A stretch of DNA of 42,314 bases from a virus, in IMG/VR virus record IMGVR_UViG_3300009285_005050, positions 1 through 42,314 of that record, one strand, 5' to 3'. The notes beneath the pieces were generated by a model, which saw only the letters and a list, made by a program, of their open reading frames with translations, did not search any database and was not told where the DNA came from. The position numbers and the translations under genes are program-made. This document shows positions 9,301-42,314 of this stretch, piece after piece. Position 1 is the stretch's first letter, and every line of letters begins with the position of its first letter.

Positions 9301-12300
9301 GGGTTGGTATCTAGCCGAAGGTTCTTACAAACACCGGAACGGCGTGAAAACGACGATCCAGATTGCTCAATGCGACCAGCACAATGCCGCTAATTGTCGT
9401 CGGCTGGAGGCATTGTTCGACCGCCTCGGACTATCGTGGAAGTGGTACGGTGGCGCCTACGGCGTAGGTATTCGCAAGATGCCCATAGGACTGAAGGAGC
9501 TGATTCATTCACAGCCGACATCGGCTGGAAAATTTGTTCCGCCGCTGTTCATGCAGCAGGGGCGCGACGTGATCGAGCGATTACTTTCTGGGCTGTTTTT
9601 GGGGGATGGGCATCTGATCCAAGCGAAGGGGAGGCGTCAAGCAAAGCAGTTATTTTTCAGTAAGAGCGCTCGCCTTGCCGGTGACGTACAGGCGCTATGT
9701 CTTCTGTCCGGTAAGCGGGCTAGTGTGCGTCAACGTCCAAGCGGAATTTACGTAGTCGCCGTCTGCGAGAAGCAATGGGCGAGCATCGACGACGCAAAGC
9801 GCGCGATAGTGCCGTATGACGATTTCGCTTTCTGCGTCACGGTCAAGAATCACGCGATTTACGTCAGGCGTAATGGCATCGCTGCGTTCACTGGAAACAG
9901 TAACTACCGCGAGCTGCTGCTGACGTGGCCAGCCGCACCCAAAGAACCCCACGGGCGCATTGAGCGGTTGATCAACGGCAAGTATCTCGTGAGTGCTGCA
10001 GGACTGCAAGCACGGCTCTTTGACACCGAGGCGGAGGCCATCGCTGAAACGCAGCGACTCGGTGAGAAGTTTTCCGAACAGACAGGGTTCATTTCCCCCC
10101 ACTTCGACGAGCCCAACATCCTCGCGCACGTCCGCTTCAATGACCGCGTGGATGCCAATGGCCGGAAGACGCTGTTCCTTGAGGAAGTGCAGAGCGATTG
10201 GCACCAGCGGGGGAGACACGAAGGGTATGGGCTGTCTGCTCAAGCAGAGGATGTGACCCTTGCGGGCGAGGCCATGGGCGGCACACCAGTGTCTGCCCGT
10301 GTTCCCGACGCCCCATTTAAAACCACTTGGCACGAACTGGCACTCAAGCGGATGCTGCGCTACGCCGCCGAGAATAACTACGATCAGATCGCGTGGACGA
10401 CGGGCGAGCAGCAGGCGGCGCGGTATGACCTCAGCAAGCAAATCAGCAAGGTGCAAATCACGAAGGATCACAACCTCGCGGCCTACGATCTGCAAGGCAA
10501 TCAGGTCATCAACAAGGCGTTACCCATCAACGAGAAGGATGCCTTCGCAGAGGTCGAGGCGCAGGTCGGCAAAGATGTCGCTCAAAGACTGTTCGTACAG
10601 CCGGAGGCAACTGAATATAAGCCGCGCGAGGTTTCAGGCATTGACCTCAAAATCGGCGGCGTGTGGCTGAAGAGGTTGTACGACGTGATGCTCCCGTCGT
10701 TCCTCAACAAGTTCGGGAAGCGGTTTGGCGTGCAGGCGGGCACGACGCGTATTGACACGGAAGAACCGACAGCCGAAGGGGATAATACGGAAAAAGTGAC
10801 CGTCCACGCCTTCGTTACCCCGCCCGCCTTGCGCCAATCAGCACTCACTGAAGGATTCGCCGTCTTTGATAAACCGCAGCCCGGTGGTACACTCCCCACA
10901 GGAGGTGCCCGTGGAAACGCCCCCGCCGTACAACCAGCCCAAGGCCCGATGCCGGCGCCGCGCCTCCAAGACACGCACCCGGCCATCGCCACCGCCGCCG
11001 CGACGCAAGGAACCCTCCTACCTGACGGCCATCAATCGCTACCGCTTGAATTAGCCGTCCCGCCGCAGTTCCCGCATATGCAGCGTTTGGCGCTGCGCGT
11101 CATCCCGATCACCCGTGCCGAAGCCGACGCGCTCCAAGGCGTCTTCGTCCAATTCCCTGACGGGCACCAAGGCAGCGCCACCTTCCAACACGTGCCGGAG
11201 GCGGAAGCTGCCAGCGCCACGGGCTTGCAGTATTTCTACAAGTACGACCTGCCCGCTGGCGCCGCTGCACCGTACACCTCCACCGCTCCTGCACCCATCC
11301 AGCAGACCTTGACGCAGCAGGAGATGGGACGGCTGGAAGGCGGGACGACGGCCGGTGAAGGTGCGCCCGCCCCCTACAACGAAGCCGCTGAACGCGCCGC
11401 CATCCAGGGCGAACCGCCCACGACCCCACAACCCCTCACACCCGAACTGCGCCGCCGTCTGGCAGCCGCCGGCTTGACCCAGGCCGATGTGGTGCGGCTG
11501 GCCCGCGCCCTGTTCCGGCAAACACGCATGATGCAGACCGAAAGCCAGCGGTTGCAACAGGCCATCATGGAGCACGGCGGGATTCGCGCTTTTGCGGGTG
11601 GCGTGGAAGCCGAGGAATACCGCGCCATCCCCATGCGCTTGCGCCGCACGACCGGGCTGCCCCCGGATGAAATGGCCGCGTCCTTGCAGGCCGAGGGCTT
11701 CCCATACGAGAGCACCAACGACTTGCTCGCGGCTATCAGCGAAATCAAGCAACTCCCCACGCTCACGATCAAAGACTTCATCCCGCAGGCGGAAGAGACG
11801 ATTTTCAACCACCTCGACCCGAAGACACGGCAGGCGTTGGTGGAAGCCCAGCCCACTGGCGCGCAGATGCGCCGGCTGCGCCAAGCCATGCGCACGGACT
11901 TGGGGAAGCAGATCACCAAACTCGCGGCGGACGCCCAGGCCAAGCGCCTCACGCCGCGCCAAGTGTCCCAGCTGGCGAAACTCCACCGCATCCAGCCAGG
12001 CCAGACGGTGACGGGGCCCAAAGGTGGGACGCTCGAGGCGCCGTTGTCGCCGGCGGATGTGCGCAAGACCCAAGCCGTTGTCGGTTCAATCCGCCAACTC
12101 GGCCCCAACGCGCCACCACCCGTCATTCCGCGCGGGCGGGCGATGGTGCCGTACTACCCGCCAGGCCGCTTCCGTGATCTCGCGGAACTCCAAGCCGGGC
12201 AGGGATCTGGGCTGTCGCCGCGCCGTGCCGCCGATGTCATTGACCGCGGGCCGATGGGGCCGACGTACCAGAAATGGGTCGGTTTGCGGAACGCCGAGAT

Positions 12301-14080
12301 TGCCGCTGGACGTGAAGCGCAAGCGTTGGTCAGCGAGTTGCATCGCATTGCAGGCCGCTTGCGCGTGAGCCAGCCCGACACCGAGCAGGTGGTGAACCTC
12401 CTGGAAGGCACCTCGACGGGTGTTACGACACCGCGGGCCACTCAGACCGCCGCCTGGATCCGCCAGACCAACGACGACTTGATTGATCGCGCCAATACGG
12501 TCCTGACGGCGTTGGGCCGCACTCCGATCACGAAGCGGCAGGACTACATGACGCACATCACGGGGAATGACGCCTGGGTGGAGCTGCGTGCCGCACTGAC
12601 GGGTGAATCCGTGGAGCACGTCCGCACGTTGGGCGACTTGGTGCCGCGCTCCTTGCGTGTCAGCTCGCGGTTCTTCAGGCCACGGGAGGGTGGGGCCTAC
12701 CTCCGTGATCCGCTGCGCGCCTTCGACGCCTATGCGCGGTCGGTCTTGCGGGTCATTCACGAAGCCACGCCGGCCCGGCAGTTAGAAGCCCATGCGGCTC
12801 AGTTGCCGATGCGCGCACGGCAGTACGTCCGCCGGGTGATTCGTCAGACGGTGGCCGGGGAGCCGGGGGAGATTGCCACAGCCGTCGGGAAACCCCTCAC
12901 GCGGGTGGTCGCGGGTATCACTAACCGGTTTTCGCGCGGCACCGTCTTGGGCAACCTCTCGTCGGTGGTGATGCAGCCGTGGACGGCTCCGGCGGTCCTG
13001 GCCGAACTGCCGGCCTCTTCGCCAACCTCCTCGTTGCTCACCGACCTCTGGCGGGTACGTCAGGCAGGGATTGCGGCCGCGTGGACGTGGCAGGGCCGGG
13101 GCATGGCGTTTGCGGAACAGTGGTCGCGCACCTTGCAAGGCCGCTTGGTCGAACGGCTCGACCCCGGCATCTTGTCGGACTACCGCGCCTTCACCGACAA
13201 ACTCGCTGGATGGATGACGGGCGTGGATCGGGCGATGGTGGCGTGGGCGTTCAATACACACTACCTGAATCAACGCGCCGAGGGGCTGTCCCATGCGCGC
13301 GCCGTGGAGATTGCGGATGACGTAGCGGCACGCACCCAAACGGAGTTCTTGAAGTCGGCCCTCCCGCCGGCGTTCAATGATGAGGCCATGCGCGCACTGC
13401 TCCCGTTCCAGACGACCGTCAACGAAGTCTTCAATGCGTTCAAGCAGGACGTGCTGCGTGGACGCCGCGCCGGTCCCGCATCGGTGACGTTGCGTGCTGG
13501 TCAGCCGCCAGCAGTCACGGAGCGCGGCCCATTTCAAGATGCTGCCGATGTCGTGCGCGATGGACGCGTCTGGCGTGCCGCGGCCCTCTGGTTCGGCACG
13601 GTAACGGCGATGGCGTTTGTCTATGACCAGTTGGGCTTGCCGCGTCCACGTGGGATCATGGACTGGATTCCTGGGGTCAGCACCTTCCGTGGCGGACCGC
13701 CGCCCATCAAGATGGTGGGAGATGTGGTGACGGGTCTCGGCTCGCCGTCGGAGCATGAACGAGAGAAAGCGTGGGGGGATTTCTGGCGCTCAGCGGGGAT
13801 TATTGCCATCGGTCCGCCGACCAATCAGGCGCTCAAGTCTGGGTACGGGATCGTCGATGTGGTGCGCGGGGCCTCCGTGACAGCGGCAGGGCGCGAGCGA
13901 TTTAAGATTCGAGGCCCTGCCGAGGTGGCGCGTGCGGTGGCGTTCGGGTCGTGGCAGACGAAGGCGGGCCAAGCGTACATCCAGCGTGGCTTCCAGCCCG
14001 AACCCTTGACCCCCGCTGAACGCCAGCAGCGGAAGATCGACCAGCGGAACGCGCGGCGGCATCACCCAGTCATCGAGTGA
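6356..14080 (+). CDS. Giant polyvalent ejection-type protein interrupted by an intein
   Basis: The precursor has 2574 residues (about 2254 after removal of the 320-residue intein). In order: three N-terminal repeats of the form W-(L/V)-R-(K/R)-x-G-V-x-V at residues 3, 32 and 58; a hydrophobic Gly/Ala stretch around 200-260; Pro/Gln-rich linkers; then an extein domain with LPGG...NYRELLLTWP, DEPNILAHVRFND, LFLEEVQSDWHQ, PFKTTWHELALKRMLRYAAE and AWTTGEQQAARYDLSKQ. This domain recurs in very large phage and prophage polyvalent proteins. The C-terminal 900 residues are largely helical with a possible membrane segment near the end (AALWFGTVTAMAFVYDQ). It follows the transglycosylase in the ejection cluster, so co-injection with DNA is plausible. 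Enzymatic activity is unknown. Confidence 0.75.
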   Translation: MPWLRKGGVDVLDSTESTTAPVTPARPTTGGWVRKGGVDVSASLPMLPSMTLPSVGEWVRRQGVAVVPAATAPSFFPSRAASITEAGLPLTQRLGQIGRTASEGIASILPPVAIARNLQLRQAERQLNPPLPSTQAGWVPPRTWEDAARQQEQYLQQRSPFLAQTIAERQGRERQAAEAMPWATGAGRFVGGLAPFAAGMGATNAALGPAGQAAIRALPLLARAPAVGLTMAPTAGALAAQERANLGVTQGVPTTAGDVAKAGLTSAALAVPLGAAGEAVMTGGRAINQRLFQGMLTRLEGVYQQRNPNVSPEVFDQFRLWLRQQLVTTARAQGWSPETGPGVLRSAIGRTRIERAIRQDPMFLKMRVPVEQPTPPQRPVMAFAPPLAAPVRPPTVPRPVLSTPGASQMPATTPPLPVIAPRVNIAAPAVLVPPRTPATMGEAIALSSPSGTMSRQSRARANERLRQELFGQEGLQAQNAPQPTPAEALRRQAQQLRELASRGMKPKAHLRQAMVLEVRAQQLDAATPTLPAAAPGAPSPTPAQPTPQPTIPDFATTQEAEAFGRQHQGNAQVVALLQAKRAAYLRLADDTALSTDLRFQAAQAAQLPREALQAAGQGVEQPTPATVSAAPPVVAPSAVKQPWEMTALEYARSHVPGARAPGAGFTAQHRVEVKAALARRQPVPPAVLAEYPDLQSPTTAGPQRPRTQTELPGLAPPPAPTTALRPTTAQAPTKEERLASGVAEPSPAYGTSAPPFYSHLERTIEQRMPRRAPVAQVRGLLASAGVKQDELTWVLGDYLDGKVFIQQADLLQHIRANQVQVQEVVKHDAEIPSSLSATGTYRPGRFATTKFSDRVLPGGPLSRDTELLSESGWKRIDELGIGDIVMTRADDGRLEWAGVSATHRVFSDRLYHFQNQSIDMMTTANHQMVVKRRRRSSAGVFRTTAEQLWRMSECLVPLTGAWHAKSQKTLFGLHAGDVAEFVGWYLAEGSYKHRNGVKTTIQIAQCDQHNAANCRRLEALFDRLGLSWKWYGGAYGVGIRKMPIGLKELIHSQPTSAGKFVPPLFMQQGRDVIERLLSGLFLGDGHLIQAKGRRQAKQLFFSKSARLAGDVQALCLLSGKRASVRQRPSGIYVVAVCEKQWASIDDAKRAIVPYDDFAFCVTVKNHAIYVRRNGIAAFTGNSNYRELLLTWPAAPKEPHGRIERLINGKYLVSAAGLQARLFDTEAEAIAETQRLGEKFSEQTGFISPHFDEPNILAHVRFNDRVDANGRKTLFLEEVQSDWHQRGRHEGYGLSAQAEDVTLAGEAMGGTPVSARVPDAPFKTTWHELALKRMLRYAAENNYDQIAWTTGEQQAARYDLSKQISKVQITKDHNLAAYDLQGNQVINKALPINEKDAFAEVEAQVGKDVAQRLFVQPEATEYKPREVSGIDLKIGGVWLKRLYDVMLPSFLNKFGKRFGVQAGTTRIDTEEPTAEGDNTEKVTVHAFVTPPALRQSALTEGFAVFDKPQPGGTLPTGGARGNAPAVQPAQGPMPAPRLQDTHPAIATAAATQGTLLPDGHQSLPLELAVPPQFPHMQRLALRVIPITRAEADALQGVFVQFPDGHQGSATFQHVPEAEAASATGLQYFYKYDLPAGAAAPYTSTAPAPIQQTLTQQEMGRLEGGTTAGEGAPAPYNEAAERAAIQGEPPTTPQPLTPELRRRLAAAGLTQADVVRLARALFRQTRMMQTESQRLQQAIMEHGGIRAFAGGVEAEEYRAIPMRLRRTTGLPPDEMAASLQAEGFPYESTNDLLAAISEIKQLPTLTIKDFIPQAEETIFNHLDPKTRQALVEAQPTGAQMRRLRQAMRTDLGKQITKLAADAQAKRLTPRQVSQLAKLHRIQPGQTVTGPKGGTLEAPLSPADVRKTQAVVGSIRQLGPNAPPPVIPRGRAMVPYYPPGRFRDLAELQAGQGSGLSPRRAADVIDRGPMGPTYQKWVGLRNAEIAAGREAQALVSELHRIAGRLRVSQPDTEQVVNLLEGTSTGVTTPRATQTAAWIRQTNDDLIDRANTVLTALGRTPITKRQDYMTHITGNDAWVELRAALTGESVEHVRTLGDLVPRSLRVSSRFFRPREGGAYLRDPLRAFDAYARSVLRVIHEATPARQLEAHAAQLPMRARQYVRRVIRQTVAGEPGEIATAVGKPLTRVVAGITNRFSRGTVLGNLSSVVMQPWTAPAVLAELPASSPTSSLLTDLWRVRQAGIAAAWTWQGRGMAFAEQWSRTLQGRLVERLDPGILSDYRAFTDKLAGWMTGVDRAMVAWAFNTHYLNQRAEGLSHARAVEIADDVAARTQTEFLKSALPPAFNDEAMRALLPFQTTVNEVFNAFKQDVLRGRRAGPASVTLRAGQPPAVTERGPFQDAADVVRDGRVWRAAALWFGTVTAMAFVYDQLGLPRPRGIMDWIPGVSTFRGGPPPIKMVGDVVTGLGSPSEHEREKAWGDFWRSAGIIAIGPPTNQALKSGYGIVDVVRGASVTAAGRERFKIRGPAEVARAVAFGSWQTKAGQAYIQRGFQPEPLTPAERQQRKIDQRNARRHHPVIE
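6366..6471 (+). repeat. 19-bp direct repeat encoding the W-V-R-K-G-G-V-D-V motif
   Basis: The 19-mer TGCGTAAGGGCGGGGTGGA occurs at 6366-6384 and again at 6453-6471, 87 bp apart and in frame, near the start of the giant protein gene. A third, diverged copy encodes EWVRRQGVAV at residues 57-66. The conserved DNA as well as protein suggests recent internal duplication. Confidence 0.75.
8939..9898 (+). other. LAGLIDADG intein (320 residues) within the giant protein
   Basis: The insert spans Ser862 to Asn1181 of the precursor. Block A is SRDTELLSESGWKRIDELGIG with Ser as residue 1. Block B is TANHQMVV (Thr62, His65). Two LAGLIDADG helices are present, FVGWYLAEG (acid Glu127) and LLSGLFLGDG (acid Asp223). 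The end is YVRRNGIAAFTGN with Asn320, followed by Ser as the +1 residue. The penultimate residue is Gly where His is usual, a known variant that may slow Asn cyclisation. Removing it joins LPGGPL to SNYRELLLTWP, restoring the conserved extein motif. Both endonuclease acids are intact, so homing may still occur. The DNA here is somewhat less GC-rich than the flanks. Confidence 0.92.
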
Positions 14081-18269: not shown

Positions 18270-18598
18270 TGAGCCAAGCCGACACGATCCTTGCCCTCCT
18301 GCGCGAAGGGCCGAAGACGCTGCGGATGATCGCCGCCCATCCGTCCGGTGTCTTCTACGAATTCCGCAGTCGCGTGTCAGAATTGCGCGATGACGGGTTT
18401 GACATACGGTGCCATCGTCTGACCGCCGCCGGACTGTGCCGCGGCTGCGCGGGGTCGGCGCGGTTGACGGAGGCGCAGCCGGTCGCGCCCTCGCCGTGGT
18501 GTCCAGCGGTGGCGTTGGGCGAGCCGGCGTATCAGTGGCACAATCACACGCGCATTGAATCTGGCGGCCAGCTTGTGCTGCATGGGATGGGGGCGTAG
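18269..18598 (+). CDS. Winged-helix DNA-binding protein
   Basis: A 109-residue protein with start ATG 18269 (TGATG junction). Residues 5-50 read as a winged helix-turn-helix: DTILALLREGPKTLRMIAAH, then EFRSRVSELRDDGFDIRCHR as recognition helix and wing. This fold is common in small phage proteins that help regulate transcription or recombination. A CRGC knuckle follows. Its gene ends 8 bp before the promoter at 18606, so it could control that promoter or the palindrome at 14682. The target is inference. Confidence 0.55.
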   Translation: MSQADTILALLREGPKTLRMIAAHPSGVFYEFRSRVSELRDDGFDIRCHRLTAAGLCRGCAGSARLTEAQPVAPSPWCPAVALGEPAYQWHNHTRIESGGQLVLHGMGA

Positions 18599-18605
18599 AT
18601 GGGGC

Positions 18606-18634
18606 TTGACGCGCAACGGCGACGGGTGTAGCAT
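18606..18634 (+). promoter_or_regulatory. Sigma70 promoter for the replication genes
   Basis: -35 TTGACG at 18606-18611, 17-bp spacer, -10 TAGCAT at 18629-18634 with TG directly before it. Transcription would start near 18641, immediately before the first strand of the long stem at 18644. Confidence 0.6.
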
Positions 18635-18643
18635 CCAATACAT

Positions 18644-18761
18644 GAGACTTGCCCATGCGAACCTGCACACCACACGCTACCACCCGGCACGCTAACCGCG
18701 TCGTCGGGTGTTCCTGTGTTGGGGCCGCTAATGTCTGGCACCGAAAAGACGGGCAAGTCTC
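18644..18761 (+). ncRNA. Structured leader RNA with three-way junction
   Basis: GAGACTTGCCC (18644-18654) is the exact reverse complement of GGGCAAGTCTC (18751-18761), an 11-bp closing stem starting about 3 nt after the predicted transcription start. Inside lies a hairpin of about 12 pairs: CACCCG (18681) with CGGGTG (18705), continuing through ACGC-taacc-GCGT with one bulged C. A third stem GTCT (18733-18736) with AGAC (18747-18750) abuts the closing strand. The fold is a three-way junction in a 170-nt leader before the gene at 18812. It matches no riboswitch class I recognise; a c4-like regulatory RNA is an alternative. Confidence 0.55.
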
Positions 18762-18811
18762 ACGGTGGCTGTCAAGACAACGGCGGCCCTTCTCTTGTTT
18801 TCGAGGACGCA

Positions 18812-19156
18812 ATGGCGTGGCGTAAAAGTTGGTCGAAGCAGAATTTGGCGCCCGACGGCACCAAGCGCCGCCTCACACCAGAACAACGGAGTGTTTGGGA
18901 TGACTGCCTCGACTTCGCGGAAATGAACCTGCACACCGGCACGCTCTGGGTGGGGCCGCACGTGATGGTCACCGCCGAGCAACTGGCCGCGATCTTCAAG
19001 ACGCCCGCTCGCGTGGTGAAGATCGCGCTTAAGCGGTTTATGGATTTGGAAATGCTGACAGGTGATGGTGTCGTCATTAACTGGCCGAAGTACCAGAGTG
19101 AGTACCAACGGCAGAAACCGTACCGAGTAAAATCGGCAGGAAAGGTTACAACATGA
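18812..19156 (+). CDS. Replisome-organiser-like protein, N-terminal HTH part
   Basis: Start chosen at ATG 18812 behind TCGAGGACGCA; the frame is open upstream to 18716 but that part is leader RNA. The 114-residue protein contains a helix-turn-helix-like segment (HVMVTAEQLAAIFKTPARVV, then FMDLEMLTGDGVVINWPKYQ) and ends YQSEYQRQKPYRVKSAGKV. This layout is that of the N-terminal half of phage replisome organisers/replication initiators, where a 'RYQ-x-x-Y-R' linker precedes the C-terminal region. The next gene continues in the +1 frame. Confidence 0.55.
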   Translation: MAWRKSWSKQNLAPDGTKRRLTPEQRSVWDDCLDFAEMNLHTGTLWVGPHVMVTAEQLAAIFKTPARVVKIALKRFMDLEMLTGDGVVINWPKYQSEYQRQKPYRVKSAGKVTT

Positions 19157-19274
19157 AGTTACAAGGTGAAGTTACAAGCACATTAGATGCACACCTTGTA
19201 ACTAAAACTTTTGCACAGGGTGTAACACCAGATAGCAGAGTACAGAGTACAGATAACAGACGTCAGAATGACGT
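19145..19274. other. Iteron cluster, putative replication origin
   Basis: GTTACAA is repeated at 19145, 19158 and 19171 with an exact 13-bp period; the first two units differ by 2 of 13 bases. CACCTTGTAAC (19192-19202) is the exact inverse of GTTACAAGGTG (19158-19168), and a diverged inverse copy GTGTAAC follows near 19220. Next come AGTACAGAGTACAGATAACAG repeats, then ACGTCA-GAA-TGACGT (19260-19274). The block is strikingly AT-rich against its surroundings. It lies across the junction of the two replication genes, as lambda ori lies within gene O. Confidence 0.6.
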
Positions 19275-19689
19275 AAAGAATAAAGATGACGCAAAAACCG
19301 CCGTTGCGCCTCCGGCGCCATCCCTGCCTGACGGCCAGGACGCCCGACGCCGGTTCCTGCAACACGTCACCAGAGCCCTCAAGACCAAGACCGGCTGCAC
19401 CGCAGCCGATGCGAACCGCTCCGCCAAGCAGGTTTTCCGTGTGGTGGTGGCCTTCGCCGCGGAAGACCTGGCGCGCTGGGACTGGCTGGCGCAGCAGTTC
19501 GACTTCCTGCCGCGTGGCCGCGATCTAGGCTGGTACGTCTGCGCCATAACCGATCTCGTGGCCGATGCGCGGTGCGCAGCGAAGGAAGCGGCGGTCAGAG
19601 GGCGCGGCTACAGCAGCACGGACGAGCCGGCGCCGGCCAGCGTGATCGCGCAGATGGCCTTGGCGAGCATGATGGGAGCGGAGCGATGA
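19153..19689 (+). CDS. Replisome-organiser-like protein, C-terminal part
   Basis: A 178-residue protein starting at the ATG of an ATGA overlap. Residues 1-50 are encoded by the AT-rich iteron block and look like a disordered linker. Residues 60-160 form a helical domain (ARRRFLQHVTRALKTKTG, SAKQVFRVVVAFAAEDLARW). With the gene upstream it resembles the two halves of one phage replication initiator, here split into separate coupled frames. Initiators of this type load host replication proteins at the origin; no helicase loader or polymerase is encoded elsewhere in the window. Confidence 0.45.
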   Translation: MKLQGEVTSTLDAHLVTKTFAQGVTPDSRVQSTDNRRQNDVKNKDDAKTAVAPPAPSLPDGQDARRRFLQHVTRALKTKTGCTAADANRSAKQVFRVVVAFAAEDLARWDWLAQQFDFLPRGRDLGWYVCAITDLVADARCAAKEAAVRGRGYSSTDEPAPASVIAQMALASMMGAER

Positions 19690-19739
19690 GCGGCCAGTCC
19701 GTAAACGCACTCCTTGACAATTACTACAATAAACGATAA
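19686..19739 (+). CDS. Possible 17-residue peptide
   Basis: ATG 19686 forms an ATGA overlap with the previous stop and the frame ends at TAA 19737-19739. The 17 codons overlap the promoter at 19714. This may simply be a readthrough tail; only the coupling pattern supports it. Confidence 0.2.
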   Translation: MSGQSVNALLDNYYNKR

Positions 19740-19742
19740 CGT
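19714..19742 (+). promoter_or_regulatory. Probable promoter upstream of the RNA ligase cluster
   Basis: A perfect -35 TTGACA (19714-19719) is followed after 17 bp by a poor -10 TAACGT (19737-19742). The AT-rich spacer and the 84-bp gap before the next well-placed ribosome site (AAGGAGGGG near 19759) support promoter activity. Confidence 0.45.
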
Positions 19743-19773
19743 ACTCCTAACGGCACCAAGGAGGGGCGATAGG

Positions 19774-19908
19774 ATGGCGAAACAAGGGATGGGTCGTTGC
19801 GAGGTCTGCAAGAAGGAAATGCCGATGCGTGTATTTTGGAAAAAATACTGCTCAGCGAAGTGCCGATTAATTGGATGGGCGCAACGGCAAGCAAGCAAAA
19901 CCGCATGA
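19774..19908 (+). CDS. 44-residue zinc-finger protein
   Basis: Start ATG 19774 with AAGGAGGGGCGATAGG upstream. The sequence has CEVCKKEMPMRVFWKKYCSAKCR, four Cys in a CxxC-x(12)-CxxxC arrangement like small treble-clef fingers, and a basic C-terminus. It overlaps the RNA ligase start by ATGA. It may bind RNA or DNA; unknown. Confidence 0.55.
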   Translation: MAKQGMGRCEVCKKEMPMRVFWKKYCSAKCRLIGWAQRQASKTA

Positions 19909-20816
19909 TCACCACGAGGATGGCGGCCATGAGTTATCTGCATATTGACAATCTCTACAAGGCCCAGGACATCTTGGCCTTTCGCACCTGCTATGCGCTG
20001 GAAAAGATTCATGGCACGTCCGCACACATCGCCTGGCACCAGGGGGCAGTTACGTTCTTTTCTGGCGGCGAATCGGCTTCGCGCTTCGTGGCCTTATTTG
20101 ATGCCATGGTGCTGGCCGAGCGTTTTCAGTCGAGATTCATGCTCTCCGACACCGTGGTCATCTATGGGGAAGCCTACGGCGGCAAGCAACAGGGGATGCG
20201 GAAGACCTACGGCGATGCCTTGCGGTTTATCGCTTTCGATGTACAGATAAACACAAGCTGGCTAGCCGTACCGCAAGCAGCAGAACTGGTGGCGCATCTC
20301 GGTGTGGAGTTTGTCGATTTTGCCGAAGTGTCCACCGATTTGGTGCGTCTGGATGCCGAGCGCGATAAGCCGTCCACGCAGGCGGTGCGGAATGGCATCC
20401 TCACGCCACAATTACGGGAAGGGGTGGTGCTCCGTCCACCCTTTGAGGTACGTACCAACAACGGCGATCGGGTCATCGCCAAGCATAAGCGTCCTGAATT
20501 TTCCGAGCGTGGACGAGCACGGGTAGAACTCGACCCGACGAAGCGTGAGACATTGCACCACGCCGATGCGATTGCCATGGAATGGGTGACCCCACAACGT
20601 CTGGAGCATGTGCTCGACCACATCCTGGCGGCACGTCCAGAGAAAACGCTGGAGATGCGTGACATCCCCGCCATCGTGACGGACATGATTGCGGACATCC
20701 TGCGTGAAGCTCAGTATGAAATCATCGATAGCAAACCTGCGCGTCGTGCTATTGGCCAACGAACTGTGCATCTGTTCAAACAATGGCTCACCGCGTCGTT
20801 GAGAGTACAGCCATGA
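19905..20816 (+). CDS. RNA ligase, Rnl2-like nucleotidyltransferase fold
   Basis: Start at ATG 19905 (ATGA overlap); ATG 19929 behind AGGATGG is an alternative, and both keep all motifs. The 303-residue protein shows the ordered ligase motifs: I, EKIHGTSAHI with nucleophile Lys34; III, VVIYGEAYGG; IIIa, FIAFDVQI; IV, EGVVLRPP; V, VIAKHKRPEF. These belong to ATP-dependent RNA ligases of the T4 Rnl2 group, which seal nicks in RNA after Lys-AMP formation. The C-terminal 100 residues are helical. No polynucleotide kinase/phosphatase partner is visible, so it may repair tRNA cut by host defences using host end-healing; that is inference. Confidence 0.8.
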   Translation: MITTRMAAMSYLHIDNLYKAQDILAFRTCYALEKIHGTSAHIAWHQGAVTFFSGGESASRFVALFDAMVLAERFQSRFMLSDTVVIYGEAYGGKQQGMRKTYGDALRFIAFDVQINTSWLAVPQAAELVAHLGVEFVDFAEVSTDLVRLDAERDKPSTQAVRNGILTPQLREGVVLRPPFEVRTNNGDRVIAKHKRPEFSERGRARVELDPTKRETLHHADAIAMEWVTPQRLEHVLDHILAARPEKTLEMRDIPAIVTDMIADILREAQYEIIDSKPARRAIGQRTVHLFKQWLTASLRVQP

Positions 20817-21151
20817 CTCCCCTCCTGGCCTACCTGGACACGATACGGGCACGGTTGGAAAACCCCTCAGGGTATGCGCCAGACCATGTCGCTATCACCA
20901 TGCTCTGCGACCTCGACCGCTTGGAACGGCTGGCGCGGGCGGCAGAGGAACTCACCGAGTACGTGACTCACGAGGATGATTGCACGTCGGCACAGTGGAC
21001 AGCGGGAGAACCGACCCCTGATGGGGGCTATCGCTCGAAGTACGCTGGGCAGTGGTATGCCAGAGGCGAAGCCGTTCCCTGCGAATGTGGGTTGCGAGAT
21101 AAAGTCGCCCGCTGGGAGGCCATCAGCGAGGAGGTGGCGCGTGAAGACTAA
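20813..21151 (+). CDS. Early hypothetical protein
   Basis: A 112-residue protein starting at the ATG of an ATGA overlap. It has an N-terminal helix with LDRLERLARAAEELTEYV, then HEDDCTSAQWT and a C-terminal CECGLRDK. The LDRLERLA segment resembles the starts of the proteins at 22580 and 23303. The mix of a helical segment and Cys/His pairs is common in small phage accessory proteins. Function unknown. Confidence 0.5.
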   Translation: MTPLLAYLDTIRARLENPSGYAPDHVAITMLCDLDRLERLARAAEELTEYVTHEDDCTSAQWTAGEPTPDGGYRSKYAGQWYARGEAVPCECGLRDKVARWEAISEEVARED

Positions 21152-21356
21152 GCCGAAGTGTCAGTGTGGGCATACCAAAACAGCGCATCTATCCGACAAA
21201 ATCAATACCGCCATTTCCGCCGCTGTGCGGGAGGCGTTGGAGCGGTGGGGGCGGCATGAAGATGATTGTAATATACGAAAAGTGTATGCCGTTGTTGTCG
21301 GCTTTACCAATAGTTGCACCTGCGGCCTCACCGCCGCCCAAGGAGGGACAGCATGA
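21141..21356 (+). CDS. 71-residue Cys/His-containing early protein
   Basis: Start chosen at GTG 21141 (GAGGTGGCGC upstream), overlapping the previous gene by 11 bp. It opens with KCQCGHTKTAH, continues with a helix (NTAISAAVREALERWG), then HEDDCN and ends SCTCGLTAAQ. The spaced Cys/His pairs and the HEDDC motif shared with the gene before it suggest related metal-binding proteins. Function unknown. Confidence 0.5.
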   Translation: MKTKPKCQCGHTKTAHLSDKINTAISAAVREALERWGRHEDDCNIRKVYAVVVGFTNSCTCGLTAAQGGTA

Positions 21357-34172: not shown

Positions 34173-35156
34173 ATGGCTATCGCCAGTTGGGCCAAGGGCC
34201 TGGTGGAGGATTCGTACGATTTCATGATCGACGCGTACGACGCCACCAAGGGCAAAGTGGACACGTTATTCGAGGTCAAGCAGAAGAACCAGGGCGGCTA
34301 CGACCAGCGCACGAGCTGGATCGCGGCTGGGACGCTGGAACAGAAGACCTCACCGGATGACATGAGCGTGACCTACCGTCGTCCGTCCGAGGGGTACACG
34401 GCCTACAGCGTGTACCGGAACTTCACCGACGGCGTGGAACTCAACCTCACCGAGGTCGAGGACATGCCGAAGAGCAAGGCGAAAGACCTGGTGGAGGACC
34501 ATGTCAAATCGTGGGGCGTGAAGATGCGTCTCACGGAGGACAAGTTCGCCGCCAGCCTGTTCAAGAACGGCGGCAAGACGGCGGGGCATGACGACTTCAA
34601 CGCCGTCTACGGGGGCAACAACTTCGTCACCAACTCCCTGGCCTACGACAGCAAGCCGGCCTTCAACCGGTCGGACAACACGCGGTCGAGCAAGGGCGGC
34701 GGGACCTACCACAACGCCTTGGCGTTGCCGCTGAACGTGACGAACCTCGGTTCGCTCTACGACCGGGTGTTCGTGGAGAACGCCTACGACGAGCGCGACG
34801 AGGAAGTCGAGACCGCCTCGATGGGCGCGATCGCACTGCTCCACCCACCGCAACTCCGGCGCGCCGCGATTCAGGCGGTGGAATCGGAGTACCTGCCGGG
34901 GGTGGACACCAACGACGTGAACCCGCTCCACAAGGCCTGCCAGCTCATCGAGTGGAGCCTGCTGCGGGCCAACGCGACCGCGTGGTACTTGCTGGTGCTC
35001 AAGAAGGGCATCACCTTCTACCACCGCGGGTCGCCGCAAATCCGCATGTTCCGTGATGAGAACTCCGGCGCCTACAAGGCGTCGGCACGGATGCGGGCGG
35101 GATGGATGCTGTGGAACTGGCGATTTTTGGGCGGCAGCAACGTCCCGACGTCGTAA
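34173..35156 (+). CDS. Major capsid protein
   Basis: A 327-residue protein with AAGGAGGCAAGCAC before ATG, the best ribosome site of the head region, as expected for the most abundant product. It has the length and secondary-structure alternation of HK97-fold capsid proteins, with an N-terminal helix (AKGLVEDSYDFMIDAYDATK) and a C-terminal region with YLLVLKKGITFYHRGSPQIR and SARMRAGWMLWNWRFLGGSN. It sits after scaffold and decoration genes. The fold is inferred; a homology search would settle it. Confidence 0.75.
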   Translation: MAIASWAKGLVEDSYDFMIDAYDATKGKVDTLFEVKQKNQGGYDQRTSWIAAGTLEQKTSPDDMSVTYRRPSEGYTAYSVYRNFTDGVELNLTEVEDMPKSKAKDLVEDHVKSWGVKMRLTEDKFAASLFKNGGKTAGHDDFNAVYGGNNFVTNSLAYDSKPAFNRSDNTRSSKGGGTYHNALALPLNVTNLGSLYDRVFVENAYDERDEEVETASMGAIALLHPPQLRRAAIQAVESEYLPGVDTNDVNPLHKACQLIEWSLLRANATAWYLLVLKKGITFYHRGSPQIRMFRDENSGAYKASARMRAGWMLWNWRFLGGSNVPTS

Positions 35157-35432: not shown

Positions 35433-35849
35433 ATGAAGAACTGGTCAGGGATGGTGGCGCTGGCGCTGCTGCTGGTGAGCGGGCCGGTGGCCTACGCGGA
35501 TGTCAGCGCGCAAGGCGGGGATGTGGGGCCGCCGCAAGAGGGGGTGTATTCGACGGCGTGCGTGAAGAATGCGGCGGGTTCCACCAACTGCAACGCGCTC
35601 TTACCGGCGGGCACGTATGTGCTCGGCTTCAAGTTGATCAACAGCACGGCCCTCACCCAAGCCGCGCTGTTTGATGCGGCCACCTGCCCGACCGATGCGA
35701 CCACGAAGCCGGTCGATGAACTCAACGAGGCCACGGCGGGAGAGGCAAACCTGCACATCTGGCCCCGTGGCATGAAGTTCAACACGGGCGTCAGCGTGTG
35801 CATGAATGACTTTGCAGGCACCACGGTCATCGTCTACTACGGGCTGTAA
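35433..35849 (+). CDS. Secreted protein upstream of the Wzy-like gene
   Basis: The ATG follows GAAGGAGGTCAGGTC. Of 138 residues, 1-22 form a Sec signal peptide (MKNWSGMVALALLLVSGPVAYA, with AYA before DVSAQ). The mature part is beta-rich with four Cys (STACV, STNCN, AATCP, VSVCM) that could form two disulfides in the periplasm. No family recognised. Export of a phage protein encoded in the structural operon is unusual; it may act on the envelope rather than in the virion. Confidence 0.6.
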   Translation: MKNWSGMVALALLLVSGPVAYADVSAQGGDVGPPQEGVYSTACVKNAAGSTNCNALLPAGTYVLGFKLINSTALTQAALFDAATCPTDATTKPVDELNEATAGEANLHIWPRGMKFNTGVSVCMNDFAGTTVIVYYGL

Positions 35850-35851
35850 GG

Positions 35852-36940
35852 GTGGGCGTCCTCCTCGTGGCGGTGTGGGTGCTGGTCGCGCCCTGGATGG
35901 CGTGGCCGCACCTGCCGCCGGAGGTCAGCCGACGATTGACGTTGGTGGTCTGCTGGGTCGGGTTGGGCCTGTGGGGGTGTAGTCGCACGGGTCACGCCGT
36001 CGGCCTACCGCGCACATGGATGGCCGTCGTGGTGGCGCTGCTGGCCGTCATGGGCTGGCACCTCCTGCCGATGGTGCGGGAGGCGACGTACTTCGAGCGG
36101 TTCATTGAGACGGCGTTTCTCGCGGACGGGCTGATCGTGCTGCTGGCGGGCGTGTGGGGCCTGTGGGCTGCACGGCAACTCCCGCTGGTCTGGCTGCGCC
36201 GGCTGCGGTGGGCCGGGCTGGTGATGGTGGTCGCCAATCTCGTGGCGTGCGCGCACGGTGCCACGATGACGGGGCTGCTCGGTCGGGACAAGCTCTTGGG
36301 GGCCTACGCGCTGCTGTGGCTGCCCGTCCTGGTGGCGTGGCGCTGGTGGCTGGCGCCGTTGCCCTTGGCGTTGCTGTGGGCGTGTGGCAGCGAGACGATG
36401 TGGGTGGGCGTCGCGGTGATGGCCGTCTATGGTTGGCCGCGACGGGCATGGTGGCTGGTGCCGCTGGTGGTGATCGTCGGACTCCTCCACGCCGACTGGC
36501 ATGTGGTGGGTCGTGGTCAAGACCGCACGTACAGCAAGGTCGTGCAGCGGCTGGAGACGTGGCCCGCCGTGGTGCTGGCGACCGCCGCACATCCGGTAGC
36601 CGGGTGGGGCTACTCGCCGATGGCGTTTCACCGGATGCAGGCCGCCCATGGGCCACGGTTGCCCAGCGTGCATTCGGATTGGTTGAGCGTGGCCTTTCAT
36701 GCCGGCTGGGTGGTCTGCGCGTTGCTGTGCTGGGTGTGGGTGAGCATCCTGCGCGCACCGCCACGGTCGCCGTGGCAACGGGCGCTGCAGGCGGGTATCT
36801 GTGGCATCGGTGTGCTGGGGCTGGGGCAATCGTTGGTGAGCGATCCACGCATTGCAGGGCTGCTCCTGCTCCTGCTGGCGTGGTGGTGGGCGGAGCGCGA
36901 TAACGGACAGGAGGTTCCATGCAACGACGCGGTGGTGTAA
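35852..36940 (+). CDS. Wzy/WaaL-like polytopic membrane protein (O-antigen ligase/polymerase family)
   Basis: A GTG start 2 bp after the previous stop gives 362 residues with about ten hydrophobic helices. Between them lies one large loop at about 215-280 with the Wzy_C signature: RLETWPAV (Arg233), AAHPVAGWGYSP, and PSVHSDWLSVAFHAG (His274). In O-antigen ligases and polymerases this periplasmic loop binds the undecaprenyl-linked glycan, and conserved Arg and His are essential. The phage protein could change lipopolysaccharide and block superinfection or switch serotype. It lies between two signal-peptide genes inside the head-tail operon. It is at the short end for this family, and its activity is not proven. 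Confidence 0.6.
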   Translation: MGVLLVAVWVLVAPWMAWPHLPPEVSRRLTLVVCWVGLGLWGCSRTGHAVGLPRTWMAVVVALLAVMGWHLLPMVREATYFERFIETAFLADGLIVLLAGVWGLWAARQLPLVWLRRLRWAGLVMVVANLVACAHGATMTGLLGRDKLLGAYALLWLPVLVAWRWWLAPLPLALLWACGSETMWVGVAVMAVYGWPRRAWWLVPLVVIVGLLHADWHVVGRGQDRTYSKVVQRLETWPAVVLATAAHPVAGWGYSPMAFHRMQAAHGPRLPSVHSDWLSVAFHAGWVVCALLCWVWVSILRAPPRSPWQRALQAGICGIGVLGLGQSLVSDPRIAGLLLLLLAWWWAERDNGQEVPCNDAVV

Positions 36941-37326
36941 CGGGCTGGCTGGTGGCCCTCGGCGTGTGCCTGGGCCTGGCGCTGCCAGCCCATGCCGATG
37001 TGCCTAGCTACGACGTAGAGACCAAGACCAAGACGGCCAGTAGCACCACGGTCGTCACGGATTCCACCGTGTGGACGCCGCTGTCCAAACACAGCATCGT
37101 GCTCATGGGTGTCGTCGTGTCCGCCGATGCCGCCCAGACGTTTCTCGTGGAGACGGGCAGCACCACCGTCATCCCGATCCAATACCTGCCTTCCACAGGC
37201 AGCGTGGCCATCGGATTTGGAGCCTTCCCGCTCTGGGTGGGCGCGGCGGATGCGGCCTTGACGTGGACGACCACCACGGGCGCGGCCTCCTCGGTGCTCC
37301 TGGTGGGCTATGAGGCGCTGCAATGA
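36919..37326 (+). CDS. Secreted protein downstream of the Wzy-like gene
   Basis: ATG 36919 follows ACAGGAGGTTCC and overlaps the Wzy-like gene by 22 bp. Residues 1-27 form a signal peptide (basic start RRGG, hydrophobic core, AHA before DVPSYD). The mature 108 residues are Thr/Val/Ser-rich and beta-like (TKTASSTTVVTDSTVWTPLS), with no Cys. Tight overlap with the membrane protein suggests coordinated expression. No family recognised. Confidence 0.55.
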   Translation: MQRRGGVTGWLVALGVCLGLALPAHADVPSYDVETKTKTASSTTVVTDSTVWTPLSKHSIVLMGVVVSADAAQTFLVETGSTTVIPIQYLPSTGSVAIGFGAFPLWVGAADAALTWTTTTGAASSVLLVGYEALQ

Positions 37327-37610
37327 AGGGCGTGAAGGCGGGGAAGGCCAGGGGCACGGCCGCTGGCGCGCTGGCGTCATTCGAGTTGCCATCAGCCGCC
37401 ATGCCGGACAGGCCACAGCGTCCCCAGCCGTCGCTCTACCTCGACCTCGATGATTTCGCCCAGGGAGATGCGCTCACGGTGGGCGATACGGGGCGTTTGA
37501 CGGCGGACTTCAAAGTGACCGCCCTGCGCGAGGAGGAGCACGGGGAGGACAAGGCCGTCCACACCGAAATCACTCTGCGCCTCTCGTCGGTGGCGCGCAC
37601 GGAGGGCTGA
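37323..37610 (+). CDS. Small hypothetical protein
   Basis: A 95-residue protein, ATGA-coupled. Its basic Gly/Ala-rich N-terminus (KGVKAGKARGTAAGALASFE) is followed by a beta-rich domain (YLDLDDFAQGDALTVGDTGR, EITLRLSSVART). No family recognised; perhaps head-tail joining. It ends at a TGATG junction with the adaptor gene. Confidence 0.5.
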   Translation: MKGVKAGKARGTAAGALASFELPSAAMPDRPQRPQPSLYLDLDDFAQGDALTVGDTGRLTADFKVTALREEEHGEDKAVHTEITLRLSSVARTEG

Positions 37611-38365
37611 TGCCGACCCTGGCAGAGTTGCGTGCGCGGGTGCGCCTCGATCGTGCGCTCAAAGGCACCACCTTCTTCAGCACGGACAATCTGGACATCC
37701 TGCTGAAGGAAGGCGCCCTCCAACTCGCCAACGATGGGGATGCGTTCATCCTCGGCAGCGACACGTGGAATGGCGTGGCGTCAGCGCAAACCTACGTCCT
37801 CTCTGGGGCGTCGCCGAAGGTGACGAACTTCCTGGACATCTACTGGCCGGCGGGTGGGTTGGTCTACAAGCCGACGAGCAGCGTCACGAAGACGGCCCCC
37901 AACGACTTCACCATCGTCTCCGAGGCGTGGCTGAACCTCCACATTCCCGGTTGGCAGGATGCCACCGCCTCGGACACGCTGCAACATGCCTACCTCAGCC
38001 ACGACAGCTCCGGCCACCTCCTGCTGGGCGTCTATCCCAAGACGAGCACGACGACGCCGACCTTCAAGCTCTACTACAAATCCCGCGGCACCGACATGAG
38101 CGCGGCGGCGAATTACCCGTGGATGGACAGTACGACCAATCTCGTCCACACCGAACCCTACCAAGTGGGCATCGCGTACTACGCCCTCTGGAAAGCCCAT
38201 GAGACCTTCACGCTGAATCAATCGCTGGCCCTGCACTACAAGGAGGCGTATCTGGAACAGGCGCTGGGCTTGCGCGAGGCGCAAGCGCGCATCTTTGCTG
38301 CCGAACAAGCAGGGCTGACGGCAGAGGCGATGGCGGAATCCGCGGACAGTTTCGGAGGACTGTAG
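37610..38365 (+). CDS. Head-tail adaptor, tail tubular protein A-like
   Basis: A 251-residue protein. The helical start LAELRARVRLDRALKGTTFF, then LKEGALQLANDGDAF, resembles gp11/gp4-type adaptors that bind the portal, and the size matches. The middle is beta-rich, and the C-terminus is helical (SLALHYKEAYLEQALGLREA). It precedes a nozzle-like protein, the order found in T7-like and P22-like tails. No direct motif fixes the family. Confidence 0.6.
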   Translation: MPTLAELRARVRLDRALKGTTFFSTDNLDILLKEGALQLANDGDAFILGSDTWNGVASAQTYVLSGASPKVTNFLDIYWPAGGLVYKPTSSVTKTAPNDFTIVSEAWLNLHIPGWQDATASDTLQHAYLSHDSSGHLLLGVYPKTSTTTPTFKLYYKSRGTDMSAAANYPWMDSTTNLVHTEPYQVGIAYYALWKAHETFTLNQSLALHYKEAYLEQALGLREAQARIFAAEQAGLTAEAMAESADSFGGL

Positions 38366-40475: not shown

Positions 40476-40874
40476 ATGCGGACACTGGCACTCATCGGCT
40501 GGCTCGTCTGGCTCGGCGCAGGGCTGGCGTGGGCCCACCCCGGCCACGTGGACGCCTGCGGCGGGCATGTGGCGGAGGAGCACGTGGACTACCCCGTGAT
40601 GGCCAATGGGACGCCGACGGTGCCGTCGGAGAGCGGGGAATATCACTTCCATTTTTCACCAGCGCAGATGCAGGCAGGGCTGGCATCGCTGCGGGCCTAC
40701 CGGCGCGCCCTGCGACGCGGTGGACTGGATGTGCCGGACTACGGCTCCTTCCGCGTCGGGTCGCGCACCTACGACATTCTGGAGTACACGCGGCAGGGGG
40801 AAGCCATTCTCCACTGCCAGGGCGATGACACCGTGACCCACACGGGGATTGCCCGGATGCTGGTGAGTCCATGA
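40476..40874 (+). CDS. Secreted His-rich (YHYH-like) protein
   Basis: A 132-residue protein with AGGAGGACGG before ATG. A signal peptide spans about residues 1-20 (LALIGWLVWLGAGLAWA, AWA before HPGHVD). The mature start HPGHVDACGGHVAEEH and then SGEYHFHFSP resemble YHYH-type metal-binding segments of small secreted bacterial proteins. The C-terminal half looks helical and then beta-like. It may bind metal in the periplasm. Its stop lies exactly at the left edge of the AT-rich HNH island. Confidence 0.55.
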   Translation: MRTLALIGWLVWLGAGLAWAHPGHVDACGGHVAEEHVDYPVMANGTPTVPSESGEYHFHFSPAQMQAGLASLRAYRRALRRGGLDVPDYGSFRVGSRTYDILEYTRQGEAILHCQGDDTVTHTGIARMLVSP

Positions 40875-40875
40875 G

Positions 40876-41493
40876 CTACTTGAGGCAATTTGGATTGAGA
40901 AAGACAAACAACCTTGGGAAGAGATCAGGTCTTTTCCGAACCGTTTCAACGCACATATGACAATGCACACAAAGCACAATCTGATTTTCCATGGCATTGT
41001 TCTTGGGGTTCTCGTCCAGATGATCAATCACCAACCTTTTTACCTGGCTCCTACAGAGTTGACACTGATGCCCATCACGCTGAAGGATCGATTTAGCAAA
41101 TCCTCCATGGCGATACTCCCATTGTCTTTGCGTAACCTGGACACGATTTCGTTTAGTCCACTGACTGCTTCGCATCGAGTTCAATTCTGCGCACGGGCGG
41201 CAGTACCATTTTGTCACCAAGCGTCGACCGCAACTCTGACTACAAAACCCTTGACGGACGAGGCGACGTTTAATGCTCATGCCCCTGCGATTGAAATGGT
41301 CGCGCCTGGCAAGGCGATACGCTGTGATGCGTACCGCATGGAGGCGAGAGGATTTGAGACTATGCTGTACCGATTTTTGGGCGCAAGATCCACACCTTCG
41401 GGAGGTCTTCAGTGGCCTCGCGCCACAACTGAAGCAAAGCCCTTGCTTGATGCGCTCGCGCTCAATGCGTCTGAGAGATGGAGGAAATCTCAT
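40876..41493 (-). CDS. HNH endonuclease, the only minus-strand gene
   Basis: A 205-residue protein read on the minus strand. An N-terminal zinc knuckle pair (CFSC at 20-23, CGSC at 34-37), a second Cys cluster (CSQSC, CRPC) and a C-terminal HNH core (CQLCRSQVKRLVIDH, then NPKNNAMENQIVLCVHCH) mark an HNH homing-type endonuclease. The basic linkers suit DNA binding. Its DNA is far more AT-rich than the genome, and it is antisense to all other genes, so it is a recent insertion. Its ATG overlaps the fiber ATG head to head in the palindrome CATG (41491-41494). Confidence 0.85.
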   Translation of the reverse strand: MRFPPSLRRIERERIKQGLCFSCGARPLKTSRRCGSCAQKSVQHSLKSSRLHAVRITAYRLARRDHFNRRGMSIKRRLVRQGFCSQSCGRRLVTKWYCRPCAELNSMRSSQWTKRNRVQVTQRQWEYRHGGFAKSILQRDGHQCQLCRSQVKRLVIDHLDENPKNNAMENQIVLCVHCHMCVETVRKRPDLFPRLFVFLNPNCLK

Positions 41494-42314
41494 GCGTAAA
41501 TTCTATCTTCAATGCGCACTTAAGTCAATCTATGTTTTTTGTATCCTGGGGCTAGGAAGCATCGCTTATGCAGCGTTAATCTCTCGCCAAACAACATTTA
41601 CAGATGGGCAAGTCTTAACACACAGTCAGCTAAACAATGAGTACGATGAGGTCTTCGATGAAATCAACGGCAACCTCAACGCGGCCAACCTCGCGGCCAC
41701 GCTGACCTTTGCGGATGGCGATTTCATCGACCTTTCGGCCATCAACATGTCCAGCACGACCGAGGGCCTGAAGCTCGGCGCGGCCACCAGCTGTTCCTCC
41801 GCCACGGCGGAAGGACAAATCTGCTGGGATACCGACGATGACCGCCTGGTGCTGGGGGACGGGGCGACCGTCAAGACGCTCTACCCGTCGGATCAAGCCA
41901 CGCTCACCACGTCCAGCCCCACCTTTGTCGACCTGACGCTGACGGGCTCTGGGTCGGATTTGAGTTTGCAGCACACCGGCAGCGACACCTTCGGCCTGCA
42001 CACGGAAGCCAACAGTCTGCTCTACCTGAAGAATGAAACCGACAACGCCTACTACCTGCTCATCGGTGGCGATCACACGCAGTACTACGGCACCTCCGGC
42101 GGCTCGGATTCCCTGACGCCGGCGCACATCTTCCAGGCCACGACGACGGGTAATGACGCGTTCCGGATTCCGTCCGGCGGCATCAGCTTGACCACCGAAG
42201 TGAGTGGGACGCTGCCCGTCGCCAACGGCGGCACGGGGGCTACTGTGGCGTCCACGGCCCTGACCAATCTGGGCGGCATTGGCGCGGCCACCACCGATAC
42301 CCTCACCAACAAGA
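41492..42314 (+). CDS. Tail fiber protein, N-terminal part (runs off the window)
   Basis: ATG 41492 follows GGAGGAAATCTC. The open frame continues without a stop to the window end (274 codons). Residues 1-26 look like a signal peptide (hydrophobic core YVFCILGLGSIAYA). After that TTFTDGQVLTHSQLNNEYDE is a standard fiber N-terminal motif, followed by repeat-rich shaft sequence ending GGIGAATTDTLTNK. The frame matches bases 1-531. The first 150 bp are AT-rich, belonging to the HNH island, and the rest is GC-rich, so the fiber looks like a join of old shaft and new N-terminus. Confidence 0.75.
   Translation, partial: MRKFYLQCALKSIYVFCILGLGSIAYAALISRQTTFTDGQVLTHSQLNNEYDEVFDEINGNLNAANLAATLTFADGDFIDLSAINMSSTTEGLKLGAATSCSSATAEGQICWDTDDDRLVLGDGATVKTLYPSDQATLTTSSPTFVDLTLTGSGSDLSLQHTGSDTFGLHTEANSLLYLKNETDNAYYLLIGGDHTQYYGTSGGSDSLTPAHIFQATTTGNDAFRIPSGGISLTTEVSGTLPVANGGTGATVASTALTNLGGIGAATTDTLTNK
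41500..41528 (-). promoter_or_regulatory. Minus-strand promoter for the HNH gene
   Basis: On the minus strand, -35 TTGACT (41528-41523), 17-bp spacer, -10 TAGAAT (41505-41500). Transcription would begin at or within a base of 41493, the A of the HNH start codon, so the mRNA would be leaderless. The promoter lies inside the fiber's signal-peptide codons. Confidence 0.6.
42296..42313 (+). repeat. 18-bp match to the start of the window
   Basis: GATACCCTCACCAACAAG at 42296-42313 is identical to bases 1-18, and both are in the fiber frame (DTLTNK). It may mark a circular join, or simply a repeated shaft motif; base 42314 (A) differs from base 19 (C). Confidence 0.7.

Follow-up and report, generated by a model that had tools for sequence, protein, structure and literature searches.

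Why would a phage carry, between its capsid and tail genes, a membrane protein resembling O-antigen ligases and polymerases, with a gene for a secreted protein on either side? The question is raised by IMG/VR virus record IMGVR_UViG_3300009285_005050, which was analysed over its whole length of 42,314 bp (hereafter the window; 63% GC) and looks complete. The two ends of the record share an 18-bp overlap, and on merging them a single tail-fibre reading frame becomes continuous; a complete, circularly permuted genome is therefore probable. On the + strand the genes run in the order TerL, portal, scaffold-like protein, capsid, A, Wzy-like protein, B, a 95-aa protein, SU10-type adaptor and nozzle-like protein. 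The cassette and its immediate flanks comprise the following features.

34173..35156, + strand: major capsid protein (flank), called from its position, weak matches and 27-29% identity to the gene at the capsid position of phage L072
35433..35849, + strand: gene A, Sec-signal protein of 138 aa; open reading frame with ATG start and GGAGG upstream
35852..36940, + strand: Wzy_C-superfamily polytopic membrane protein of 362 aa, assigned by sequence; GTG start, 2 nt past the gene A stop
36548..36550, + strand: codon for Arg233 of the Wzy-like protein, aligned to Arg265 of WaaL 7TPG; invariant in 17/17 sequences
36590..36610, + strand: HPVAGWG motif, residues 247-253 of the Wzy-like protein, from sequence and alignment
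36671..36673, + strand: codon for His274 of the Wzy-like protein, aligned to His313 of WaaL 7TPG; invariant in 17/17 sequences
36919..37326, + strand: gene B, Sec-signal protein of 135 aa; ATG start with AGGAGG upstream
37323..37610, + strand: 95-aa protein (flank); open reading frame whose ends overlap B on one side and the adaptor gene on the other
37610..38365, + strand: tail adaptor (flank); PF24175 SU10_adaptor, E 1.7e-8, above cut-off

Genes A, Wzy and B are packed tightly as a single unit between the capsid gene and the tail adaptor gene. Gene B starts inside the 3' end of the Wzy gene, the overlap that had been noticed originally amounting to 22 nt, and has its own ribosome-binding site; the mature N-terminus of its product is rich in Ser and Thr. 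The mature part of the gene A product contains four Cys and is predicted, as judged by eye, to be beta-rich, and it had no match in Pfam, PHROG or PDB. Upstream, TerL matched phrog_2 (E 1e-20), and the portal protein shared 25% identity with a phage portal matching phrog_1216. The capsid proteins of the window and of L072 both weakly matched the C-terminal part of phrog_133, and the 95-aa flanking protein had no family match in Pfam or PHROG. Neither a promoter nor a same-strand terminator was found along the capsid-to-tail stretch, which is weak evidence, and no integrase family was matched among the window proteins scanned. Elsewhere in the window, positions 6356-14080 encode a 2574-aa protein with weak family matches, probably an ejected or internal virion protein, and positions 2068-2655 a permuted papain-like amidase (Peptidase_C92) that may serve as a lysis or injection enzyme. 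Just past the tail genes (40476-40874), a short protein with a Sec signal is encoded; it contains the motifs HPGHVDACGGH and YHFHFS and has no family match.

Some 10-11 hydrophobic segments and a single hydrophilic loop of 61 residues (221-281) can be recognised in the 362-aa protein. This loop holds R233, H247-P-V-A-G-W-G253 and H274 between transmembrane helices, in agreement with the original prediction, which had described a polytopic protein with Arg233, HPxxGWG and His274 in one loop. The expected likeness to PF04932 (Wzy_C) was obtained for the loop region when all of Pfam was searched (E 8.2e-7; 29.4 bits, just under the cut-off of 31.7), and not for the full-length protein, which had no Pfam match because HMMER drops it at the filtering stage. 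Compared by hhalign with an independent Wzy_C alignment, made up of bacterial and D3/VarioGold Wzy_C proteins only, the protein scored 46.8 with a probability of 83; 100 hydropathy-preserving shuffles scored 24.5 or less, and four other, unrelated polytopic proteins 18.6 or less. With a HMMER profile built here from Wzy_C proteins, the full-length window protein could not be told apart from shuffles. In an alignment led by the window protein (alignment A4; 16 phage sequences and one bacterial), R233 and H274 were invariant in all 17 members. Fifteen of these matched PF04932 individually, and the window protein did so when trimmed to the loop; PglL_A and Wzy_C_2 domains were reported in none of the 17. 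These sequence comparisons indicate that the 362-aa polytopic protein is a member of the Wzy_C superfamily (O-antigen ligase/polymerase/O-oligosaccharyltransferase).

Searched against the PDB, the profile of alignment A4 gave a single match (E 8e-9), the cell-surface polysaccharide polymerase/ligase 7TPG, which we take to be the WaaL of C. metallidurans; R233 fell on Arg265 and H274 on His313. These two residues and Arg191 are presumably functionally important in 7TPG. With six viral relatives, leaving out the window and bacterial proteins, 7TPG was again the sole structure matched (E 2.4e-6); a two-sequence profile of the window and L072 proteins had no PDB match, the wider viral alignment being needed. 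None of the 16 phage sequences has Arg in the column of Arg191, and the bacterial relative L008 does. An AlphaFold2 model of the window protein (17 sequences) reached a pLDDT of 70.7 and a pTM of 0.64, with most of the N-terminal part at 50-60, and Foldseek with this low-confidence model found no match in the PDB below E 1.5, WaaL included. With a model this weak, the structure check called for originally carries little weight for or against the fold, and it is the sequence profiles that point to WaaL.

Single-sequence searches with the window proteins found no close relatives in viral, genome and phage collections. An HxDW pattern was discarded, as it gave nothing in viruses and one bacterial Wzy_C protein (L008), which was taken as a seed. 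The DNA pattern R-x3-W-x9-HP-h-x-GWG, which is blind to genome position, retrieved 15 viral contigs, 14 of them with a Wzy_C-like frame, and more relatives were added by profile scan. The phage Wzy_C proteins collected in these two ways formed 14 clusters at 60% identity. In 12 of the 14, window included, the Wzy_C gene lies between the capsid gene (or capsid and decoration genes) and the tail tubular or adaptor genes. The other two are L072, with the gene placed after that for the capsid, and L039/G017, where an adaptor-like gene of the same operon precedes it. The slot genes were confirmed by HMM in L061 and L065 and were elsewhere called by position and evident likeness. Both of these phages have the order capsid, decoration protein, Sec protein, Wzy_C, tail tubular protein, with matches in L061 to phrog_212 (capsid, 1e-83), Bbp16 PF21190 (decoration), Wzy_C (50.6 bits, above the cut-off) and phrog_394 (tail, 1e-42), and in L065 to phrog_3437 (capsid), Wzy_C (31.3 bits) and phrog_394. 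The counts leave out the other GWG-motif contigs, G006 and G008/G013/G018, whose Wzy_C genes lie close to genes for fibres and, in the two cases inspected (G006, G018), run on the opposite strand. In L051/L052 (G017), around 18399-21214, two Sec-signal genes precede the adaptor-like gene that the Wzy_C gene follows, and several further Sec-signal genes, a fibre gene among them, lie past the adaptor.

The whole cassette was found again in IMGVR_UViG_3300037465_000164 (L072), where portal, capsid, A, Wzy and B occur in the same order. Identities between the two phages are 25% for the portal protein, 27-29% for the capsid protein, 33-35% for A, 34-36% for Wzy and 38% for B, and the orthologues of the two exported proteins are as follows.

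L072:7532-7927: gene A orthologue, 33-35% identity, signal conserved
L072:9004-9411: gene B orthologue, 38% identity, with a conserved T-KTA-STT---D segment

In L072, B is followed by fibre genes, and the adaptor gene comes roughly 7 kb later. The A-Wzy-B cassette, with its closely spaced starts, is conserved after the capsid gene of this divergent phage, and the synteny expected of a three-gene module was upheld.

The Sec signals originally read on both neighbours also stood up: the N-termini of A and B show n-h-c regions and Ala-x-Ala-type sites (AYA/D, AHA/D), which are conserved in the orthologous cassette. A Sec-signal gene lies directly upstream of Wzy_C in 13 of the 14 phage clusters (<60% identical), and the partners in eleven clusters belong to one family (alignment A5). 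The predicted model of this family (pLDDT 75) consists of a helix at the N-terminus, a disordered region and a beta domain. The beta domain matched the N-terminal region of the CBA120 tailspike TSP4 (E 2e-4), the Pa223 capsid spike and T4 gp9, as well as 212 viral models, fibre and minor tail proteins among them. On this modelling, the A5-family partner looks like a phage fibre or spike domain with an export signal. Homology of window A and B with this partner family or with each other was rejected, as only the signal peptide aligned.

Sec-like N-termini are also present on other proteins of the window genome. The tail fibre, encoded across the record ends (41492-42313 joined to 1-531), begins with MRKFYLQCALKSIYVFCILGLGSIAYA followed by ALISRQTTFTDGQ, a Sec-like signal thus preceding a typical fibre N-terminus, and Sec signals are also carried by the L072 fibre and by three more L072 proteins. 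In LUZ24, phiM5 and MW202879, the same crude test found such a signal in none of 59 late-region genes. In the tail nozzle (tail tubular B-like) of L057 (L057:8889-12062), a second plausible start (MADPLTGIKSS) is immediately preceded by an in-frame Sec-like stretch, MRPIRVLILVVWVLALSCSVTTAQD, which suggests that the protein has two forms. A capsid-spike slot as in LUZ24-type phages was considered and dropped, LUZ24 having just a 106-aa gene there. The capsid-to-tail-tubular slot of phage phiM5 (L002 7728-9038) is occupied by a GDSL/SGNH hydrolase that is present in the particle proteome, a further case in this slot of an enzyme that may modify glycans.

Because Sec-like starts occur elsewhere in the genome, the tail fibre included, the step from secreted to envelope-modifying is weaker than it first seemed. 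Since the exported partner of the related modules is modelled as a spike- or fibre-type protein, a virion-type or glycosylation-acceptor role is as open as envelope sealing. Of the envelope-modifying three-gene module put forward originally, the module held, and the envelope part, which had been drawn from the Sec signals, lost ground.

We nevertheless favour, with some confidence, the view that the Wzy_C-class enzyme and its exported partner constitute an envelope-directed, late-expressed, periplasm-facing glycan-transfer module, late expression being read from the operon position. Whichever acceptor is used, the conserved pairing argues for a functional link between partner and enzyme, and the module is recurrent and probably functional. 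In the proposed mechanism, the phage would make an inner-membrane enzyme of the WaaL/Wzy/O-OTase class together with small Sec-exported partners from the head-tail operon. By homology, the enzyme would take a glycan from the host undecaprenyl-pyrophosphate carrier on the periplasmic side, where His274 would act as catalytic base and Arg233 would hold the pyrophosphate, as they are expected to do from WaaL. The glycan would then be joined to lipid A-core, to a growing polymer or to the exported partner. With lipid A-core or a growing polymer as acceptor, the surface would change late and re-adsorption to infected cells and debris might decrease; with the exported partner as acceptor, the pair would be a phage version of TfpO-pilin or PglS-ComP. 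The most likely purpose of the module, which we put forward tentatively, is to remodel or mask the surface glycan of the host late in infection, which would keep progeny and competitors from adsorbing. Surface glycan already present late would stay unchanged, so masking would be slow, and masking alone leaves the partner unexplained, given the spike-like exported family and the Sec-like starts elsewhere.

Part of this difficulty would disappear if the Wzy_C protein were a dedicated protein O-oligosaccharyltransferase that glycosylates its Sec-exported neighbours (A, B and their relatives) with host lipid-linked glycan, the glycoprotein acting at the surface or being freed at lysis as a decoy or coat, comparable to TfpO/PilO-pilin and PglS-ComP. 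A co-made exported acceptor would sidestep the slow turnover that troubles masking. The direct pairing in 13 of 14 clusters, with partners from at least two unrelated sequence families, is consistent with this, as are the gaps of 2 and 4 nt between the A stop and the Wzy start in two phages and the Ser/Thr/Ala-rich segment that B retains past its signal. Substrates of TfpO, TfpM and PglS are often encoded close by, and TfpO and TfpM, like the phage proteins, are without PglL_A and Wzy_C_2 (PMC12645811). However, the C-terminal Ser/Thr sequon of TfpO/TfpM is missing in all partners, no acceptor site is conserved across the partner families, and known phage Wzy_C proteins are O-antigen or capsule polymerases or ligases; we therefore regard a dedicated O-oligosaccharyltransferase as somewhat unlikely. 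A more specific version, in which a widespread group of uncultured podoviruses would encode both members of the pair in the head-tail operon and use the Wzy_C oligosaccharyltransferase to dress a Sec-exported fibre-domain acceptor with host surface glycan, yielding a decoy, receptor plug or virion coat, appears fairly improbable.

If A, B and the other partners were instead virion decoration or spike proteins, the Wzy_C gene would be a separate moron merely sharing the operon, and the N-terminal hydrophobic stretch would be unused for export or used in assembly at the membrane. The likeness of the partner beta domain to the TSP4 N-terminal region, the Pa223 capsid spike, T4 gp9, fibres and minor tail proteins speaks for such a role, and so do the partner's position directly after the capsid or decoration gene and the Sec-like starts of the window and L072 tail fibres. 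Nevertheless, the 59 late genes of the three comparison phages are free of such signals, AxA-type sites are kept in diverged proteins, and the recurrence of one kind of upstream neighbour in 13 of 14 clusters is not what would be expected for an unlinked moron. In addition, no relationship of window A and B to the modelled partner family could be detected, and we judge the virion explanation unlikely. Lysogenic serotype conversion of the D3 type, with genes expressed from a prophage and altering the O-antigen of the lysogen, shares an enzyme superfamily with D3 Wzy-beta and VarioGold VG_p25. Yet no integrase family was found among the scanned window proteins, the genes sit on the late strand within the head-tail operon rather than at a prophage end or attP, no internal promoter was found, and BLAST showed no similarity of the window Wzy to D3 or VarioGold proteins; this explanation is very improbable. 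Late periplasmic glycan transfer thus remains our preferred reading, and the pairing of a Sec protein with Wzy_C, which recurs across many unrelated, uncultured viruses, suggests a hitherto undescribed strategy acting at the bacterial surface late in infection.

Most of what is known about how phages control the surface glycans of their hosts comes from prophages, and a conserved pair of Wzy_C and exported protein in the structural operons of many uncultured podoviruses would carry such control through to the final stage of lytic infection. The pair raises two possibilities, late receptor masking and phage-encoded glycosylation of exported proteins, as well as a neglected question, namely why phages of this sort make fibre-type proteins that start with a Sec signal. 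In the literature searched, most subscription papers lying outside our reach, no description of the capsid-to-tail Wzy_C slot was found.

Compared with WaaL (Cupriavidus metallidurans, PDB 7TPG/7TPJ), the phage proteins have equivalents of Arg265 and His313 and the HPxxGxG loop, whereas the equivalent of the transmembrane Arg191 is absent, the low-confidence window model gave no fold match, and the phage enzyme is encoded in a head-tail operon and paired with a Sec-exported protein. For wzy genes of prophages, effects on O-antigen or capsule are known, and the phage Wzy_C genes described in the literature consulted (D3, VarioGold, Acinetobacter) come from temperate phages, where they sit close to attP/int or at prophage ends. 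D3 Wzy-beta, phi297 and VarioGold VG_p25 (O-antigen polymerase or ligase) are, like the window protein, phage-encoded members of the Wzy_C superfamily, but those of D3 and VarioGold are found close to attP/int, with transcription running counter to that of the late genes, in D3 also with Iap and Oac, whereas the window genes are inside the head-tail operon. The Acinetobacter prophage polymerases Wzy1Ph and Wzy2Ph change a surface polysaccharide, and their genes are located in integrated prophages, near int or depolymerase genes (PMC13228068). The position originally called unusual for a wzy gene is indeed so beside these three, with one exception: Halomonas phage YPHTV-1 (L073, ON854455.1; 8203-10531) carries an O-antigen ligase and an OatA-like O-acetyltransferase between tail genes. 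Its Wzy_C-type gene is likewise within a tail module, but it has the acyltransferase as neighbour and no small Sec protein annotated directly upstream. With TfpO/PilO, TfpM and PglS the phages share a Wzy_C enzyme beside an exported protein, and with TfpO and TfpM also the domain content; the two domains that set PglL apart, PglL_A and Wzy_C_2, went unreported throughout the alignment. Acceptors of TfpO and TfpM are pilins with a C-terminal Ser/Thr, and PglS uses a ComP-type internal site; the phage partners, by comparison, are encoded in a phage operon, match no pilin family and do not end in Ser/Thr.
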